NCBI GenBank assembly: GCA_035765775.1 | Contig: DASTWV010000059.1 | Coordinates: 124,001 to 188,000 of the forward strand | Length of the DNA stretch: 64,000 nucleotides | Source of the DNA: Actinomycetota bacterium | Lineage (GTDB): Bacteria; Actinomycetota; CADDZG01; JAHWKV01; JAOPZY01 | Direction: 5' to 3' | Shown here: in pieces, positions 1,663-12,200 of the stretch | Position numbering within the stretch: the first letter of the stretch is position 1 | Layout of the letters: each line of letters starts with the position of its first letter | Notes under the pieces: model-generated | Database searches by the model: none | What the model was told of the DNA's origin: nothing | The model's input: the letters and a program-made list of their open reading frames with translations, nothing else | Made by a program: the position numbers and the translations under genes

Positions 1663-4341
1663 TCAGGGGAGACCGGCCGCTGGCTTGTGGAGCAGCAGGT
1701 CGATGATCAGCCCGGTCCAACCGGTCTGGTGCGACGCCCCCAGCCCGGCGCCGGTGTCCCCGTGGAAGTACTCGTGGAAGGGGATGAGGTCGTGCCAGCG
1801 GGGATCCTCGTCGAAGCGGCTGACGCCGCCGTGGACCGGGCGCCGGCCGTCAGGGCTCTCGGTGAACAGCCCGAGCAGCCGGCGGGAGAGGTCGTTGGCC
1901 ACCTGGCGGAGGGTGGCCTGGACCCCCGAGCCGGTCGGGTACTCGACGGTAAAACCCGGCCCGCAGAAGGCGTCGAAGTGGCGCAGGGCGGCGATGATCA
2001 GGTGGTTGAGCGGAAACCACACCGGCCCCCGCCAGTTGGAGTTGCCCCCGAACAGGCCGCTCTGCGACTCCCCGGGCTCGTAGTCGACGGCAGCCTCCAT
2101 GCCGTCGATGCGCAGCCGGAAGGGGTGCTCGGCGTGCCACCGGGAGAGCGCCCGGATGCCGTGCGGCGACAGGAACTCCTCCTCGTCGAGCAGCCGCCCG
2201 AGGATGCGCACGAGGCGCTCGGGGGACACGATCGACAGCAGCCGCCGGTCCTGGTGGCCCGGGATCCGGCTGTGGCCGACGGCCGACCGGTAGGCGGGGC
2301 GGTGCCACTCGAACCACTCCATGCGGGCCCGGAAGCCGGGCAGGGCCTCGAGCGTCTCGGGCTCCAGCACCCCCACCGCCAGCAGCGGGATCAGACCCAC
2401 CATCGACCGCACCCGTACCCGCTCGGGCGGCCCCTCGGGGCGCCGGAGGAGGTCGTAGAAGAACCCGTCCTCCTCGTCCCACAGGCCCTGGGCGTCGAGG
2501 GCGACGGCGATGTAGGTGAAGTGCTCGAAGAACTTGGTGGCCAGGTCCTCGTAGGTCGGGTCGTTGGCCGCCAGGGTCAGGGCGAGGGCCATCAGGGTCA
2601 GCGCCGAGAACGCCATCCAGCCGGTGCCGTCGGCCTGCTCCAGGGTCATGCCCGGCGGGAGCTTCGACCGGTCGAACGGGGCGATGTTGTCCAGCCCGAG
2701 GAAGCCGCCGGCGAACACGTTGGTCCCGGTGGGGTCCTCCCGGTTCACCCACCACGTGAAGTTGATGGCCAGCTTGTGCAGCATGCGCTCCAGGAAGTCG
2801 AAGTCCCGCCTGCCGTCCAGGTCCCACACCCGGAGGGCGGCGTAAGCCAGCACCGGGGGGTTGACGTCGGAGAAGTTCCACTCGTAGGCCGGGACCTGGC
2901 CGTTGGGGTGCATGAACCACTCCCGGCACAGCAGCACCAGCTGGTCTTTGGCGAAGCCGGGATCCAGGTGCGCCAGGGCGATGCACTGCAGGGCGAGGTC
3001 CCAGGAGGCGTACCAGGGGTACTCCCAGGTGTCGGGCATCGAGATCACGTCGGAGTTGGACAGGTGGCGCCATGACCCGTTGCGGATCTCGCCCCGCCCG
3101 GGCGGTGGTGGTGGGCAGCCCGGGTCACCCTCCAGCCAGTGGGCGACGTCGTAGTGGAAGTACTGCTTGGACCACAGCATCCCCGCCGCCGCCTGGCGCA
3201 GGACGGGGGCCGCGCCGTCGGGCAGGCGGCCGACCCGGGCGGCCAGCCCGGCGTGCCACTCGTTGGCCTCGGCCTCCCGCACGCGCATGACCTCCTCGAA
3301 CCCCGGGCCGAGGTCGGGCGGGGCCTCCCCGGCATCCGGCCCGTCGGGGGCGGGCGTGAGGCGGACCCGGACCTCGACGGTCGCCCCGGCGGCGGCGGTC
3401 GCCGTGAACCACGCCGCTGCCTTGGTCCCCACTTTGTCGGGGTTGACCGTGGCTGCCCCCCGGACGATGTGGTCGTGGATCCCGTCCTTCGGGTACCGGG
3501 GCGAGGCGGCCGCCCCCCAGAGCCGGGCGGCGTTGGTCTCGTTCTCGCAGAACAGGAGCCGCCCCTCGCCGGCATCCGGCGACGCGGCTGCGCACATCCG
3601 GGGGCCGAGCCAGGAGTGGCCCTCGCAGACGATGGTGCCACTGCGGCCCTGGTGGGCCTGGCGGGGCTCTCGGCCCTGGTGGGACCCTCGGCCCTGGTGG
3701 GACTGTCGGCTCTGGTGGGCCTGGCCGGCCCGCAGGGTCGCCCGCCGCCGGTCCCGGCCCCAGGCCCACGTGTTGCGCAGCCAGAGGGTCGGGATGATGT
3801 GGAGCGTGGCGGGGGCGTCGCCCACGTTGGTCGCCCGGATGCGGAGGCAGACATCCTCCGGATCGGCCTTGGCGAAGTCGGCGGTCACCTCCCAGTACCC
3901 GCCGTCGAAGGCCCCGGTGTCGAGCAGTTCGTGCTCGGCATCCGAGCGGGCCCGGCGCCGGTTCTCGGCCAGCAGGTCGCCGAAGGGGAAGAGTGCCTGG
4001 GGGTACAGGTAGCGCCACCGCATCCAGGAGTGCGTCGGCGTGCCGTCGAGGAAGAACCAGTAGTCCTTGGCGTCCTCGGCGTGGTTGCCCTCGGGCCCGG
4101 CGAGGCCGAACATGCGCTCCTTCAGGATGGGATCGGCGCCGTTCCAGAGGGCGAGGGCCAGGCACAGGAACTGGCGGTCGTCGCAGAAACCCGCCATCCC
4201 GTCCTCGTTCCAGCGGTAGACCCGGGAACGGGCGTGATCGTGCGGGAAGTAGGCCCAGGCGTCGCCGTCGGCGCTGTAGTCCTCCCGGACGGTCCCCCAG
4301 GCGCGCTCAGCCAGGTACGGCCCCCAGCGGCGCCAAGGCAC
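1663..4341 (-). CDS. GH63-family glucosidase / mannosylglycerate-hydrolase-like
   Basis: 892-residue protein of the GH63 (alpha/alpha)6-barrel type. It starts with the family block WRRWGPYLAERAWGTVREDY, then HDHARSRVYRWNEDG, a central region with GQVPAYEWNFSDVNPP (likely acid side), and the late block GGNSNWRGPVWFPLNH. It has no signal peptide, so it should act in the cytoplasm on alpha-glucosides, alpha-mannosides or glucosylglycerate-like solutes. GTG 4341 is the only standard start in frame after the upstream stop. In-frame codons before it (HRLAEADAG) still resemble family N-termini, so a non-standard start slightly upstream is possible. Residues about 200-232 are a His/Gln/Arg repeat not expected in the family. 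It lies between a beta-propeller gene and ppgK. Confidence 0.85.
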   Translation of the reverse strand: MPWRRWGPYLAERAWGTVREDYSADGDAWAYFPHDHARSRVYRWNEDGMAGFCDDRQFLCLALALWNGADPILKERMFGLAGPEGNHAEDAKDYWFFLDGTPTHSWMRWRYLYPQALFPFGDLLAENRRRARSDAEHELLDTGAFDGGYWEVTADFAKADPEDVCLRIRATNVGDAPATLHIIPTLWLRNTWAWGRDRRRATLRAGQAHQSRQSHQGRGSHQGREPRQAHQGRSGTIVCEGHSWLGPRMCAAASPDAGEGRLLFCENETNAARLWGAAASPRYPKDGIHDHIVRGAATVNPDKVGTKAAAWFTATAAAGATVEVRVRLTPAPDGPDAGEAPPDLGPGFEEVMRVREAEANEWHAGLAARVGRLPDGAAPVLRQAAAGMLWSKQYFHYDVAHWLEGDPGCPPPPPGRGEIRNGSWRHLSNSDVISMPDTWEYPWYASWDLALQCIALAHLDPGFAKDQLVLLCREWFMHPNGQVPAYEWNFSDVNPPVLAYAALRVWDLDGRRDFDFLERMLHKLAINFTWWVNREDPTGTNVFAGGFLGLDNIAPFDRSKLPPGMTLEQADGTGWMAFSALTLMALALTLAANDPTYEDLATKFFEHFTYIAVALDAQGLWDEEDGFFYDLLRRPEGPPERVRVRSMVGLIPLLAVGVLEPETLEALPGFRARMEWFEWHRPAYRSAVGHSRIPGHQDRRLLSIVSPERLVRILGRLLDEEEFLSPHGIRALSRWHAEHPFRLRIDGMEAAVDYEPGESQSGLFGGNSNWRGPVWFPLNHLIIAALRHFDAFCGPGFTVEYPTGSGVQATLRQVANDLSRRLLGLFTESPDGRRPVHGGVSRFDEDPRWHDLIPFHEYFHGDTGAGLGASHQTGWTGLIIDLLLHKPAAGLP

Positions 4342-4396: not shown

Positions 4397-5932
4397 TTAA
4401 CAGCCGGAGCCGAGACCGAGCGCGTGCAGCAGGTTCTGGATCAGGGAGAGAAGGCCGCCGAGAAGGCCGCCGGAGCAACCGCCGCCGCCACCGCCACCGC
4501 CGCTGGGCGAGGCGCCGGTCCCGGAGAGGGCCACGGACTGGGACCCCCCGCCGGCCTCGGAGAACCCGACGCTGCCCGAGAACGTGCCCGTGGTGTTGGG
4601 GGCGAAGGACACGCTGACCGAGCAACTCTGGCCCCCGGGAAGCGTCGCCCCGCTGCATCCGTCGGTGGCCAGGGCGAACTCACCCGGGTTGGTCCCGCCC
4701 AGGGTCACCGGGTTGAGGGTCACGGTCGACGTCGTCCCGTTGGACAGCGTGATGGTCTGGGGCGAGCTGCTCGAGCCCACGGTCTGGCTGCCGAAGTTGA
4801 TGCTGGTCGGCGATGCCTGGACCTGGCCGGCGCCCCCGACGCCCACGCTGACCTCGCCAATGGCGGCCGCTTGGTCGTTCTCGGTGAAGTAGATGTTGCC
4901 GTTCGGCCCGGACGTAATGCCGGTGGGCTGCACCCGGGGCGAGAAGGCGTTGTGGGTGGGCACCGGGAACTCGCTGACCGTGCCACCGGTGGTGATCCGG
5001 CCGATGGCGTTGTTGCCCTGGTCGATGAACCACAGCGCACCGTCGGACCCGGCGGTGATCGCCGAGGGGGCGGGGGTGCCGGCGATCCTCGGGAACTCGT
5101 GGACCACGTGCTGCGGGGTCATCATCCCGATGATCCCGGCGCTCTGCTCGGTGAACCACAGGTTGCCGTCCGGGCCGACGGTGATGCCGGCGATGCCGGC
5201 GCTCGCCCCGCTGGTGGCCTGGGTGTCACTCACCATGGTTCCGGCGGTGGTCATCTCGCCGATCTTGCCGCCCGGGGCGGTGCCGCCCTGCTCGGTGAAC
5301 CAGAGGTGGCCGTTGGGGCCCGACGTGATGGCCATCGGGGCGAGCCCGGGGTTGGTGATCGGGAAGGTGGTGGCCTGGCTGCCCACCGCGGCGTTGGGGT
5401 TGATCCGGCCGATGGTGGCGTTGCCGAAGTCGGTGAACCACATGTTGCCGTCCGGGCCGGTCACGATGCCGGTCGGCAGGGCGTTGGCCTTGTTGATGCC
5501 GAACTCGTTCTGGATGCCGGGGATCGCCGCAGTCTGGCGGCCCACCTGGTTGACGCTGCCCGACAGCTCGGTGAACCACAGCCGCGAGTCGGGGCCGGAA
5601 GTGATGGCCACGGGTGTGGCGTTCGGCGTGTTGGTGGCGTGCTCGTGCACGCTGGTGCCGTCGGGCGTCATGAAGCCGATCGTGCTGGCGCCGGCGTCGA
5701 CGAACCAGAGGTTGCCGTCCGGGCCGGTGGTGATGCCGAGCGGGTCGCTCGTGGCGGTCTGGGAGATCCCCGCCGGGCGGAACTCGGTGATGGTCCCGGC
5801 GGTGGTGTTGGCGGTGGCGCCGTGTGCGGTCTCGGCCGCCGCCAGCAGGAGCCCCTGGGCTGCCACGAGTGACACGCTGACGAGCACGGCGATACTTTTG
5901 AACCTCGTGAAGCGGTGTGGGCGTTGCGGCAC
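4397..5932 (-). CDS. secreted Vgb-like beta-propeller protein with choice-of-anchor-D domain
   Basis: 511 residues from GTG 5932, chosen because GGAGAGGAG sits 6 nt upstream and a signal peptide follows at once (basic FTRFK, hydrophobic core, cut near AHGA). Residues about 45-350 carry repeated GPDGNLWFTE/GPNGHLWFTE units at about 45-residue spacing, the virginiamycin-B-lyase/NHL-type propeller. Residues about 370-470 match an ASPM-SPD2-hydin (choice-of-anchor D) beta-sandwich (INFGSQTVGSSSSPQTITLS). A Gly8 linker leads to a tail with LLGGLLSLIQNLLHALGLG flanked by two Cys. Such propellers are often structural, so lyase activity is not established. The frame stays open upstream of the chosen start but without signal-peptide logic. 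Confidence 0.75.
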   Translation of the reverse strand: MPQRPHRFTRFKSIAVLVSVSLVAAQGLLLAAAETAHGATANTTAGTITEFRPAGISQTATSDPLGITTGPDGNLWFVDAGASTIGFMTPDGTSVHEHATNTPNATPVAITSGPDSRLWFTELSGSVNQVGRQTAAIPGIQNEFGINKANALPTGIVTGPDGNMWFTDFGNATIGRINPNAAVGSQATTFPITNPGLAPMAITSGPNGHLWFTEQGGTAPGGKIGEMTTAGTMVSDTQATSGASAGIAGITVGPDGNLWFTEQSAGIIGMMTPQHVVHEFPRIAGTPAPSAITAGSDGALWFIDQGNNAIGRITTGGTVSEFPVPTHNAFSPRVQPTGITSGPNGNIYFTENDQAAAIGEVSVGVGGAGQVQASPTSINFGSQTVGSSSSPQTITLSNGTTSTVTLNPVTLGGTNPGEFALATDGCSGATLPGGQSCSVSVSFAPNTTGTFSGSVGFSEAGGGSQSVALSGTGASPSGGGGGGGGCSGGLLGGLLSLIQNLLHALGLGSGC

Positions 5933-6292
5933 GGCGTTCTCCTCTCCGACGGTGGAGTCCCGGAAGCCGGTCGCATTCGGGTGAGCAGACCTCGCCCCCG
6001 TGTTCGGTCCAGGGCTCAAGGTATCACCCGGGCGGGGGAGGAGTTGCGGCAATCCACCGGTTTCCCGGCATTTCCCCTTCTCTGAGAGAGAACTAATCCC
6101 ACTCCTGTCAGGCCGGACGGCATTCTCTTGGCCGCGGTGCGGCGGTACCGCGGTCCCACGCGGATTCGGATCCTGCTCGCCTCCGAGGGCCGTGCCCGCC
6201 ACAGCCCCCGAGGCACCGCCCGGCTGGCCACAGTTCTAGCGGTGGGCCTGGGTGTGTAGGCCTGGGTGTGTTGCTCCGATTCGCGGATGTCT

Positions 6293-7593: not shown

Positions 7594-7624
7594 TTGACCC
7601 TCACGTTACGTCAGGCTCTACGAT
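7594..7624 (+). promoter_or_regulatory. MerR-type promoter with 19-bp spacer and dyad
   Basis: TTGACC (7594-7599) and TACGAT (7619-7624) are separated by exactly 19 bp, the over-long spacing typical of MerR-activated promoters. The spacer holds CCTCACG-TTA-CGTCAGG, an inverted repeat with one mismatch resembling the Streptomyces tipA operator as I remember it. The predicted +1 falls on the GTG start at 7631, so the mRNA should be leaderless and the gene autoregulated. Confidence 0.8.
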
Positions 7625-7630
7625 GACCTC

Positions 7631-8401
7631 GTGGTAGCCAGCAGCTTGACGGTCGGCCAGGTGGCCAGGCTCGCGGGTGTGACGATCCGGACGTTACATC
7701 ATTACGATGAGATCGGGCTGCTCTCGCCGAGCGTGCGGAGTCCCGCCGGCTACCGGCGGTACGGAGGCCAGGACATCGAGCGGCTGCAGCGCATCCTGTT
7801 CTACCGGGAACTCGGCTTCGCCCTGTCCGATGTGGGGCGGATCCTGGATGACAACCTCGCCGACGCTGGGTCGCACCTGCGCCGCCAGCACCGGCTGCTC
7901 AGGCGGCGGATCGCCCACCTACAGGACCTGGTGGCGGCCGTCGAGAAGGAAATGGAGGCATACAACATGGGCATTCAACTGACACCCGAGGAGCGCCTCG
8001 AGATCTTCGGCGACCGGGTCCCCGAGGAGTACGCCGACGAAGCCGAGGAGCGGTGGGGCGAGACCGAGGCCTACCAGCAGTCGATGCGCCGGGTCTCGAC
8101 CCACACCAAAGCGGACTGGCTGGCGATCAAGGCGGAGAGCTCGGCGAACGAGGGCCGCATCGTCGAGGCCTTCCGGGCGGGGGCGGAGCCGGCCAGTGGG
8201 CGGGCGATGGACCTCGCCGAGGAGCACCGCCAGCACATCTCCCGCTGGTTCTATGACTGCCCCCCGGCGATGCACCGGGGCCTGGGCGACATGTACGTCA
8301 ATGATCCCCGTTTCACCGCCAACTACGAGAAGCTGGCCCCGGGGCTGGCGGAATGGCTGCGCACCGCCATCGCCGCCAACGCCGACCGGCAGTCGGTATA
8401 G
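7631..8401 (+). CDS. TipA-like MerR-family multidrug-sensing regulator
   Basis: 256-residue autoregulated activator. Residues 1-75 are a MerR winged helix (LTVGQVARLAGVTIRTLHHY, then GLLSPSVRSPAGYRRY) and residues about 76-112 form the dimer coiled coil. From about residue 113 comes a TipAS antibiotic-recognition domain, with HISRWFYDCPPAMHRGL and NDPRFTANYEK. Cys210 in FYDC is in the place of the Cys that in TipAS bonds thiopeptides covalently. An internal ATG at 7967 with GGAGG 8 nt upstream would yield a separate 144-residue drug-binding domain, as in tipA, where TipAL is about 253 and TipAS 144 residues. GTG 7631 sits at the predicted transcription start. A DinB-like gene follows after 11 nt. 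Confidence 0.92.
   Translation: MVASSLTVGQVARLAGVTIRTLHHYDEIGLLSPSVRSPAGYRRYGGQDIERLQRILFYRELGFALSDVGRILDDNLADAGSHLRRQHRLLRRRIAHLQDLVAAVEKEMEAYNMGIQLTPEERLEIFGDRVPEEYADEAEERWGETEAYQQSMRRVSTHTKADWLAIKAESSANEGRIVEAFRAGAEPASGRAMDLAEEHRQHISRWFYDCPPAMHRGLGDMYVNDPRFTANYEKLAPGLAEWLRTAIAANADRQSV
7954..7969 (+). promoter_or_regulatory. internal ribosome binding site and ATG for TipAS-like short product
   Basis: GGAGG (7954-7958), 8 nt spacer, ATG (7967-7969), in frame with the regulator. It corresponds to codon 113, and the product would be 144 residues to the stop at 8401. Position and size match the tipAL/tipAS dual-product arrangement, so the excess short form could act as a drug sink. Confidence 0.7.
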
Positions 8402-8412
8402 CCTGCGCGGCA

Positions 8413-8895
8413 ATGGACGGTCCCTCGGTGGCGGCGGCGCTCGACCAGCAGGTGGGCGCCATCACTGCGTGGCTGGGCACCGCCGACCCGGCGCTGCTCT
8501 ATGTGGCCCCCGCCGACACCGAATGGACCGTCATGCAGCTCATGGCCCACGTCACCGAGGTGCTGCGCTATTGGCCCGACGTGATGGTTGCCCTCGCCGC
8601 CGAGCCTGGCCGGTCCTTCGGGCGGGGCCTGGACGACAGCGTCCGCACCGGGTACGTCGCCGAGCACAAGGACGACTCGGTGGTCGACATGGTGCGGGCC
8701 ATGACCGAAGCGGGCGCCCAGGCAAGCTCACAGCTGGCGGCGATCCCCGATACCGGGTGGTCGGCCACCGGCGTGCACCAGGTGTGGGGGACCATCTCAC
8801 TGCCGGAGGTCGTTCAGCGGGTGCTCACCGGGCACCTGCCCGACCACCTCGCCCAAGCCCAGGCGGCCTACGCCGCAGCCCAGGGTCACGCATAG
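8413..8895 (+). CDS. DinB-like (mycothiol-dependent maleylpyruvate isomerase N-terminal-type) protein
   Basis: 160 residues from ATG 8413, 11 nt after the TipA-like gene and so probably co-transcribed. The motifs EWTVMQLMAHVTEVLRYWP near residue 35 and GHLPDHLAQAQ near the end fit the DinB four-helix bundle, whose three metal ligands are usually His; His at about 44 and at 145/149 are candidates. Members are metal-dependent thiol transferases or resistance proteins. A role in detoxifying the compound sensed by the upstream regulator is inference. An upstream in-frame ATG at 8353 inside the regulator gene is unlikely to be used, because the sequence there is Arg-rich and non-conserved. Confidence 0.75.
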   Translation: MDGPSVAAALDQQVGAITAWLGTADPALLYVAPADTEWTVMQLMAHVTEVLRYWPDVMVALAAEPGRSFGRGLDDSVRTGYVAEHKDDSVVDMVRAMTEAGAQASSQLAAIPDTGWSATGVHQVWGTISLPEVVQRVLTGHLPDHLAQAQAAYAAAQGHA

Positions 8896-8958: not shown

Positions 8959-10050
8959 ATGGCTGCGCCGGAACCCACAATGAGCCAGACGGACCCCGCC
9001 CAGGGCCAGACCGAGGCCGCCTTCGAGGCCTTTTTCCGGGCACACGAGGCCTCGATGTACGGCCTGGCACTCCAGATTTGCGGCGATCCCCGCCTGGCCG
9101 CCGAGGTGGTGGCGGAAGGGTTCGCCCGGGTCTGGCCGCGGGCGAAGGCCGGCGGTGCGGCCGACCTCGCGGCGGTGCGCAGGACGATCGTGCGGGAGAT
9201 CAACACCCGCCTCCGCCGGACCCGAGGCCAGGCGCCGCCCGCCCCGGGCTCGCCCGGGGACGACCCGATCCGCCGGGCATTGCAGGCCCTCCCGCTCCGC
9301 CGGCGCACCCTCGTGGTGCTGCGTTACCAGGCCGACCTTTCCCCCGTGGACGCCGCCGAGGCGACCGGGCTGTCCCTGTCGACGGTGAAGGCGGAGAGCA
9401 AGAAGGGCGTGCGCCAGCTCCGCCGTGCCCTGGCCCTGCCCGACGAGAGCAGGCCCCGGGCTGCGCCCCCGTCGCCCCCGCCCGAGGCGGGGCACGACGT
9501 GTCGTGGATCACCCAGCCCGAGGCGGTCGGGGACGCCGAGTCGTGGGTCGAGATCGATGACGCACCCCCGGTGGTGGAGGGCCAGCCGGGCCCACCGGCG
9601 GCGGCGATGGCCGAGGAGCCGGCCACGCCGGAGCTTGGGAGCGACGTCCCTGCGCCGGAGCCGGCAGCCGTGATCGTCCCGGAGCCGCCGGTGGAGGCGC
9701 GTGCGGAGCCCGGCCTCCCCGCAGCTGAGGCGGATCCGTCGCCCGCGCCGCCCGAGCCCGAGGCGAGCGCGCCCGAGCCCGAGGCGAGCGCGCCCGAGCC
9801 CGACCCGGAGCCGGCACCGGACCTGCCTGCGGCCGACGCCCGTGCGGCTGAGGAGTCTGCAGCCGACAAGGTCGCAGCCGACAAGCCCGCGGCGGGCTTG
9901 CTGCCGGGGACCGCATCCGAGCCGGAGACCGATTTCCAGCCGGGGCCCGAGGCCGCCGGATCGTCGGCGGTGGCGGAACTCGACGCGGCCCCGGATGCAG
10001 TGGGCGACGAGGCACCGGCGCACGTCGAAGCTTCCGAGCCCGAGCCATGA
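8959..10050 (+). CDS. ECF-like sigma-70 family factor with long acidic tail
   Basis: 363 residues. Region 2 is visible at about 20-65 (AFEAFFRAHEASMYGLALQI, then EVVAEGFARVWPRA) and region 4 at about 110-160 (LPLRRRTLVVLRYQADLSPV, then GLSLSTVKAESKKGVRQLRR). The remaining 200 residues are an acidic Pro/Ala/Glu tail with a tandem PEPEASA repeat and no recognisable fold. It should direct RNA polymerase to a small regulon. ATG 8980 (MSQTD) is an alternative start; neither has a good ribosome site, and a -10-like TAAGCT (8936-8941) lies just upstream. Its stop overlaps the start of the next gene (ATGA), as for sigma/anti-sigma pairs. Confidence 0.78.
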   Translation: MAAPEPTMSQTDPAQGQTEAAFEAFFRAHEASMYGLALQICGDPRLAAEVVAEGFARVWPRAKAGGAADLAAVRRTIVREINTRLRRTRGQAPPAPGSPGDDPIRRALQALPLRRRTLVVLRYQADLSPVDAAEATGLSLSTVKAESKKGVRQLRRALALPDESRPRAAPPSPPPEAGHDVSWITQPEAVGDAESWVEIDDAPPVVEGQPGPPAAAMAEEPATPELGSDVPAPEPAAVIVPEPPVEARAEPGLPAAEADPSPAPPEPEASAPEPEASAPEPDPEPAPDLPAADARAAEESAADKVAADKPAAGLLPGTASEPETDFQPGPEAAGSSAVAELDAAPDAVGDEAPAHVEASEPEP

Positions 10051-10821: not shown

Positions 10822-11274
10822 TCAGTCGTAGATCCTGAGCTCGATCTCCTCGGGCAGGGTGATGCCCTCGGCATCCTCGGCCTTGGCGAAGGGGCTCTCC
10901 TTCACCACCGGCGTGGCGGCGATGCGGAACTGCGTCGCCCCCGCCCGCACCAGCGACTTCAGCGCCTCGGTGATCACTACCACCACGGCGATGGGCGAGA
11001 GCTGGTGCGGCCGGCGGTAGTCGAAGCTGCTCACCGGCGCCCGCACGTCGCAGTGGCCCTCGTCGCCGAAGCAGCCCCCGTGGCCGAAGATGGTGTACGA
11101 GCCGGCCTCGACGTCGGCCACCTGGGCACCGCTGGCGTCGTGGCCCAGCATGCGGATCACCATCTTGTAGCTGGGCCCGGAGTGGTCCACCCCGACGAAC
11201 ACCAGGTCGGCCCGGCGGAACTCGGTATGGCCGATGGGCAGGTCCATCGTCTCGGCGACCGTGGCGTCGCTCAC
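10822..11274 (-). CDS. detached tyrosinase C-terminal beta-sandwich domain protein
   Basis: 150 residues, GTG start overlapping the tyrosinase stop by 4 bp (GTGA). The block FGHGGCFGDEGHCDVR followed by FDYRRPHQLSP and ITEALKSLVRAG matches what I recall of the C-terminal domain fused to many bacterial and fungal tyrosinases and hemocyanin-like phenoloxidases. Here it is a separate, translationally coupled gene. In related enzymes this domain caps the copper site or acts as a placeholder or chaperone. Two Cys (in GGCFGDEGHC) could form a disulfide. No signal peptide is seen. The role as tyrosinase partner is inference from coupling and similarity. Confidence 0.68.
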   Translation of the reverse strand: MSDATVAETMDLPIGHTEFRRADLVFVGVDHSGPSYKMVIRMLGHDASGAQVADVEAGSYTIFGHGGCFGDEGHCDVRAPVSSFDYRRPHQLSPIAVVVVITEALKSLVRAGATQFRIAATPVVKESPFAKAEDAEGITLPEEIELRIYD

Positions 11275-12200
11275 TGCGCAGCACCCCCTTCAACAACCTG
11301 GGTCACGCCGGGCACCTCGGGGCCCGGGTCGGGACCGGGGACCGGGACGAAGGTGGCCTGGGCCAGCTTGGCGATCGGGATCGGGAGCCGGGCGACGGCC
11401 GTGGCGTAGTCGTAGCCCAGCGTGGTGACCGATAGCGTCTGGCTGACGGTCATCGGGAACGGAGGCAGCGCCTCGTTCATCAGGCCCGACGGAACCCCGG
11501 CCGTGGGGTGCTTCAGCTGCCAGAGCCGCCAGAGGCGGTCGATCATGGTGTGATGTGCCCAGAAGACGGGGTCGTAGGCCGCCAGGGGGATCTCGCTCAT
11601 CGTTCCGCCCACCCAGACGTGGACGTTGTTGTGGATCTGCTCCACCTGCGTGGAGAAGTCGAGGAAGTCGCCGAGGGCCAGCACCGAGGTGACGTCCGCG
11701 GGCGTGGGCAGCTCGGATACCGGGCTGGGCGAGCGGTTCGTGTGGGTCGGGGGGTGCTGGATACCGACACTGGGGCCCTGCTGCACCGCCTGGGCGTTGA
11801 TCGCCGACCCGGTCAGCGGGTTGTTGCCTGACGTGTCGGTATACGCCGCCGGGAGGCCGTGCTGGTGCGAGGCCGCACTGGTCCAGTCCCACCAGGGCAG
11901 GCTGACACCCGCCACCTGGTCCTGGAGGGCCAGCTCGAAGAAGTAGAGGTAGGCACGGTGCCAGGGCAGGAACAGGGGGCTGCCGTGGGTGCAGTACATC
12001 GGCAGCGGCAGGCCGTGGATGCCGGCCTGGTGCTGGAAGCCACGGTCGTCGTTCACGCCCATGGCACCCGAGAACGCCTGGCGGAAGCTGGCGAGCTGCG
12101 TGGAGCTCATGGCGTCGACATTCGGGCGCACCCGCGGTGCGACCCGGACGAGGGACGGGGGAACGGCGGTGGTCAGCAGGCGTGCGGCGGTGGCGCTCAT
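11271..12200 (-). CDS. tyrosinase / polyphenol oxidase (type 3 copper)
   Basis: 309 residues, a single type-3 copper domain that oxidises phenols to quinones. The CuA region shows FQHQAGIHG, THGSPLFLPWHRAYLYFFE; the CuB region shows HNNVHVWVGG and DPVFWAHHTMIDRLWRLWQ, so all six His ligands can be accounted for. No signal peptide is evident. A promoter with TGGACA and TATCCT at 18-bp spacing lies just upstream (12239-12268). The usual C-terminal domain is missing and instead encoded by the overlapping next gene. Size fits the catalytic domain alone. The physiological substrate is unknown. Confidence 0.9.
   Translation of the reverse strand: MSATAARLLTTAVPPSLVRVAPRVRPNVDAMSSTQLASFRQAFSGAMGVNDDRGFQHQAGIHGLPLPMYCTHGSPLFLPWHRAYLYFFELALQDQVAGVSLPWWDWTSAASHQHGLPAAYTDTSGNNPLTGSAINAQAVQQGPSVGIQHPPTHTNRSPSPVSELPTPADVTSVLALGDFLDFSTQVEQIHNNVHVWVGGTMSEIPLAAYDPVFWAHHTMIDRLWRLWQLKHPTAGVPSGLMNEALPPFPMTVSQTLSVTTLGYDYATAVARLPIPIAKLAQATFVPVPGPDPGPEVPGVTQVVEGGAAQ

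Follow-up and report, generated by a model that had tools for sequence, protein, structure and literature searches.

TipA-class regulators join a MerR-type helix-turn-helix (HTH) domain to a TipAS ligand-binding domain, and a mechanism of autoinhibition and release has been described for them (PMC7762955). The closest described system is the TipAL/TipAS pair of Streptomyces lividans, represented here by a control locus (L114) from the genome of a Streptomyces-like genus with 100% TipAS identity. The control encodes a TipAL of 253 residues and a TipAS of 144 residues, which bears out the lengths (about 253 and 144) on which the original prediction for the present locus had relied. Autoinhibition has likewise been proposed for Lmo0526, SkgA and Mta, TipA-class proteins of other phyla (PMC7762955). 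A short form has been reported for AlbA of Klebsiella oxytoca, a drug trap composed of MerR and TipAS-like parts (PMC6078987).

The gene considered here lies in a window of 64,000 nucleotides, the whole stretch of DNA that was analysed. It occupies 7631..8401 (+) and, in the frame from GTG7631 to 8401, encodes a long form of 256 residues, as originally predicted. Pfam profiles located a MerR HTH domain at residues 7-73 (7649..7849, +; E = 5.7e-17) and a TipAS ligand-binding domain at residues 134-250 (8030..8380, +; E = 3.6e-42), both above the Pfam cut-offs. Alignment with S. lividans TipAL gave identity at 139 of 247 positions (56%), and identity to the solved TipAS was 50%. The best solved relatives were S. 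lividans TipAS (2MBZ, 1NY9) and TipAN (2VZ4), followed by Lmo0526 and SkgA. No second TipAS protein was found in the window's genome. In the tree, the protein fell outside the supported Streptomyces TipAL clade and so does not share a clade with S. lividans TipAL. Its domains and its identity to TipAL make this, by sequence, a genuine MerR-plus-TipAS gene of the TipA class, predicted to encode a self-regulating antibiotic sensor. One homologue, 60% identical (L007 1501-2256, genome G014), has a single in-frame TAA, which may reflect pseudogenization or a mistake in the assembly.

The promoter is of the over-spaced MerR type (7594..7624, +), with TTGACC (7594-7599) and TACGAT (7619-7624) separated by 19 bp around an inverted repeat, just as the original prediction had described. 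The repeat, CCTCACGTTACGTCAGG (7599..7615), is symmetric at 14 of its 17 bases. An operator with the same 19-bp spacing was present upstream of nearly all of the 97 full-length relatives. When the 3.6-Mb genome was searched at up to 3 mismatches, the operator was found at one site, the gene's own promoter, and no further TipA targets were detected. An operator that is common to relatives and has a single genomic site supports autoregulation of one transcript, predicted here from the dyad in the promoter's own 19-bp spacer.

GTG7631 is the first in-frame start and stands 6 nt past the -10 hexamer without a Shine-Dalgarno sequence; the long form therefore probably has a leaderless start. It had been suggested that this start was kept from tipA, and that part of the claim does not hold, because the S. 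lividans-type tipA of the control is leadered, its GTG lying 26 nt past the -10 (CAGCGT) and behind a Shine-Dalgarno sequence, GGGAGCGG. Among the 89 rows of the tree set, 66 starts were leadered, 13 (including that of the window) looked leaderless, 6 offered both options and 4 were ambiguous, and the leaderless label changed 9 times on the tree. The probable leaderless start is a recurrent difference from S. lividans tipA and not an inheritance from it. A quick tree had suggested that it might be the hallmark of one subclade including the window; a careful tree gave this no support, and the idea was rejected.

Within the long-form gene, ATG7967 is codon 113 and is preceded at 8 nt by GGAGG (7954..7958, +), after which come the CA of a rare alanine codon. 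A predicted short form (TipAS-like; 7967..8401, +) would contain exactly 144 residues from this ATG to the stop, so that the internal start, its Shine-Dalgarno sequence and the length of its product were all correctly foreseen. GGAGG before an ATG at the same codon was found in 72 of the 97 relatives. The internal start might nevertheless be unused, if GGAGG and ATG113 arise only from the coding of a conserved protein motif, Met-Glu-Ala-x-x-Met. Since ATG-GAG-GC, which encodes Met-Glu-Ala, itself spells GGAGG, the synonymous third base of the alanine codon was examined in the 75 relatives that have a start codon here and alanine at position 110. The codon was GCA in 55 of them, GCG in 19 and GCC in 1, whereas GCA made up 2.8% of the 2417 alanine codons elsewhere in the same genes. 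The expected number was 3.25, a 17-fold difference, and the highest value in 100,000 simulations was 13. With 46 of the tallied genes from Streptomyces, the relatives are not independent samples, but GCA was also used in Kitasatospora, Modestobacter, Rubrobacter, Geodermatophilus, Klenkia and genomes of the same order and the same class as the window's; GCG occurred in Micromonospora and Rhodococcus. In the window gene, 1 of 32 alanine codons is GCA, and it is the one at the internal GGAGG. As the loci were gathered by peptide patterns outside the internal-start region, the GCA signal was not selected for. Four Nonomuraea genes (L053, L057, L059, L080), which appear to be natural single-product variants, have lost the start codon, GGAGG and GCA together. 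An unused internal start is consequently very hard to credit. The codon statistics indicate that selection maintains the internal start, a trait conserved in the TipA genes of actinobacteria at large and no peculiarity of Streptomyces, and the dual-product claim is stronger than the original reader could have known.

The original prediction also regarded the window protein as a true thiopeptide sensor, with Cys210, in the motif FYDC, as its drug-binding residue. Alignment with TipAL and TipAS supported the homology but not this assignment. Cys210 (8258..8260, +) aligned without gaps with C207, the first of the only two cysteines of TipAL, and the second, C214, aligned without gaps with Gly217 (8279..8281, +). 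Inducers are said, in the abstract of Chiu et al. 1999, to react with ‘the second of the two C-terminal cysteine residues’, which we take to be C214 of TipAL. With C214 as the reactive residue and glycine in its place, the window protein would lack the covalent site. Induction is reportedly also possible without covalent bonding (same abstract), and on that basis the window protein may sense thiopeptides non-covalently. For TipAS, PMC7762955 mentions only ‘an active cysteine’ without naming the residue, and none of the papers searched names it. C207 was kept in 83 of the 97 relatives and C214 in 33. The state of C214 changed 17 times on the quick tree, 10 of these changes being forced by starred branches, so that the second cysteine has changed state at least 10 times on such branches. 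Covalent bonding of a thiopeptide through Cys210 would accord with the overall homology to TipAL, with the retention of I112, F123, Y131 and W139, and with the position of Cys210, the sole cysteine of the protein, seven residues from that of the second cysteine. Such bonding is nonetheless improbable, given that Cys210 is the family-wide first cysteine, that position 214, where Chiu et al. 1999 reportedly place the bond, is glycine, and that five Streptomyces homologues (L043, L044, L060, L063, L100) show the reverse of the window, with C207 replaced by Val or Ile and C214 kept. The drug-binding cysteine was most likely misassigned, and the window protein is unlikely to capture thiopeptides covalently where TipAL does. 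A cysteine as widespread in the family as that of FYDC is no basis for classing a TipA protein as a trap that binds thiopeptides covalently.

The ligand itself may also differ. Of the six TipAL ligand or switch positions named in PMC7762955, the four just listed are kept and two are changed, F126 to R129 and V135 to A138, which suggests that the ligand may be other than a thiopeptide. It is a real possibility, though held tentatively, that the autoregulated dual-product design is kept while the TipA-class sensor responds to a ligand other than a thiopeptide. Such a sensor would be in keeping with the position of the protein outside the Streptomyces TipAL clade, with the absence of C214 and the arginine at F126, and with Mta and AlbA, which sense other compounds. 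However, most of the contact residues checked are kept, and the F126 position is variable among relatives (that of V135 is mostly Ala), which makes the arginine a weak argument. The pocket residues, as read from the alignment, do not decide the ligand class either way.

A gene for a DinB_2-like protein of 160 residues (8413..8895, +; Pfam DinB_2 E = 1.1e-9) begins 11 nt past the stop codon of the tipA-like gene. The DinB_2 match covers nearly the whole protein. No DinB-like homologue was found beside the TipA genes in the flanks of the 97 relatives (for some loci, a flank of 1.5 kb), and a conserved coupling was rejected. A genome of the same family encodes a 56% identical homologue right at the end of its contig, and the short stretch upstream of that homologue contains no TipA end. 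The absence among the 97 relatives together with this homologue makes the coupling look lineage-specific. The coupling proposed in the original prediction thus stands as an adjacency in the window and is found in none of the relatives. The 11-nt gap suggests that the DinB-like gene is possibly co-transcribed with the tipA-like gene. The protein shares an H...HxxxH pattern with the same-family homologue, and this likeness and the DinB_2 match point to the DinB_2/mycothiol-S-transferase superfamily, with a score below the cut-off for the mycothiol-S-transferase profile. A search of the window's genome for mycothiol synthesis, which would have backed a thiol-transferase role, gave two MshC/CysS-like matches, both far below the MshC cut-off. 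It is conceivable, but doubtful, that the locus encodes a sensor without covalent trapping whose leaderless, self-activated transcript also carries the gene for a DinB-type thiol transferase, which would dispose of the electrophilic drug captured on the short form.

The locus is best read, with reasonable confidence, as an autoregulated, dual-product TipA-class locus whose ligand, probably a hydrophobic antibiotic and possibly a thiopeptide, would be bound non-covalently; the last point is proposed because glycine replaces the reactive cysteine (C214) of TipAL. By homology with TipA-class proteins, a ligand-free dimer of the 256-residue long form would bind its own over-spaced promoter in an autoinhibited state. 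Entry of the ligand into the C-terminal TipAS pocket would release the autoinhibition, allowing the HTH domain to use the over-spaced promoter and activate transcription. A single, probably leaderless mRNA would then yield both the regulator and, through the internal ribosome site, the 144-residue binding domain, which may accumulate and soak up the ligand as a sink. The DinB-like gene may be read off the same transcript.

The host is an uncultured actinobacterium, and the expectation that the genome lies outside Streptomyces was correct, the Streptomyces-like genome G044 being only ‘same phylum’ in the kinship table. The window's genome contains no YcaO gene, and thiopeptide synthesis by the host itself was rejected. 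Vgb_lyase-type repeat proteins often have other functions; a gene whose product strongly matches this virginiamycin B lyase family (4397-6202, -; 1.4e-72) and has an Ig-like C-terminal stretch is a possible second antibiotic-related gene near the TipA-like locus. The window also encodes a glycoside hydrolase with an MGH1-like domain (1663-4341, -; 1.1e-21), an ECF-type sigma-70 region 4 protein with a long Pro/Ala/Glu-rich C-terminal tail (8959-10050, +) and a tyrosinase-domain protein (11271-12200, -; 8.6e-43).

The window locus shares with S. lividans TipAL/TipAS its domain order, a near-equal length (256 versus 253 residues), the operator dyad and the 19-bp spacing, as well as the internal ATG, GGAGG at 8 nt, the GCA codon, the 144-residue short form and the first cysteine. 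It differs in its identity of 56%, in the replacement of C214 by Gly, F126 by Arg and V135 by Ala, in its GTG at 6 nt past the -10 rather than at 26 nt behind a Shine-Dalgarno sequence, and in the DinB-like gene downstream. Lmo0526, SkgA and Mta have the MerR HTH and TipAS domains in common with the window protein, which is far nearer to TipAL than to any of them; Lmo0526 has Tyr and Ser at the two cysteine positions and lacks an internal Met at the start of TipAS. In AlbA, two TipAS-like domains stand in tandem and albicidin is bound non-covalently, whereas the window protein has one such domain.
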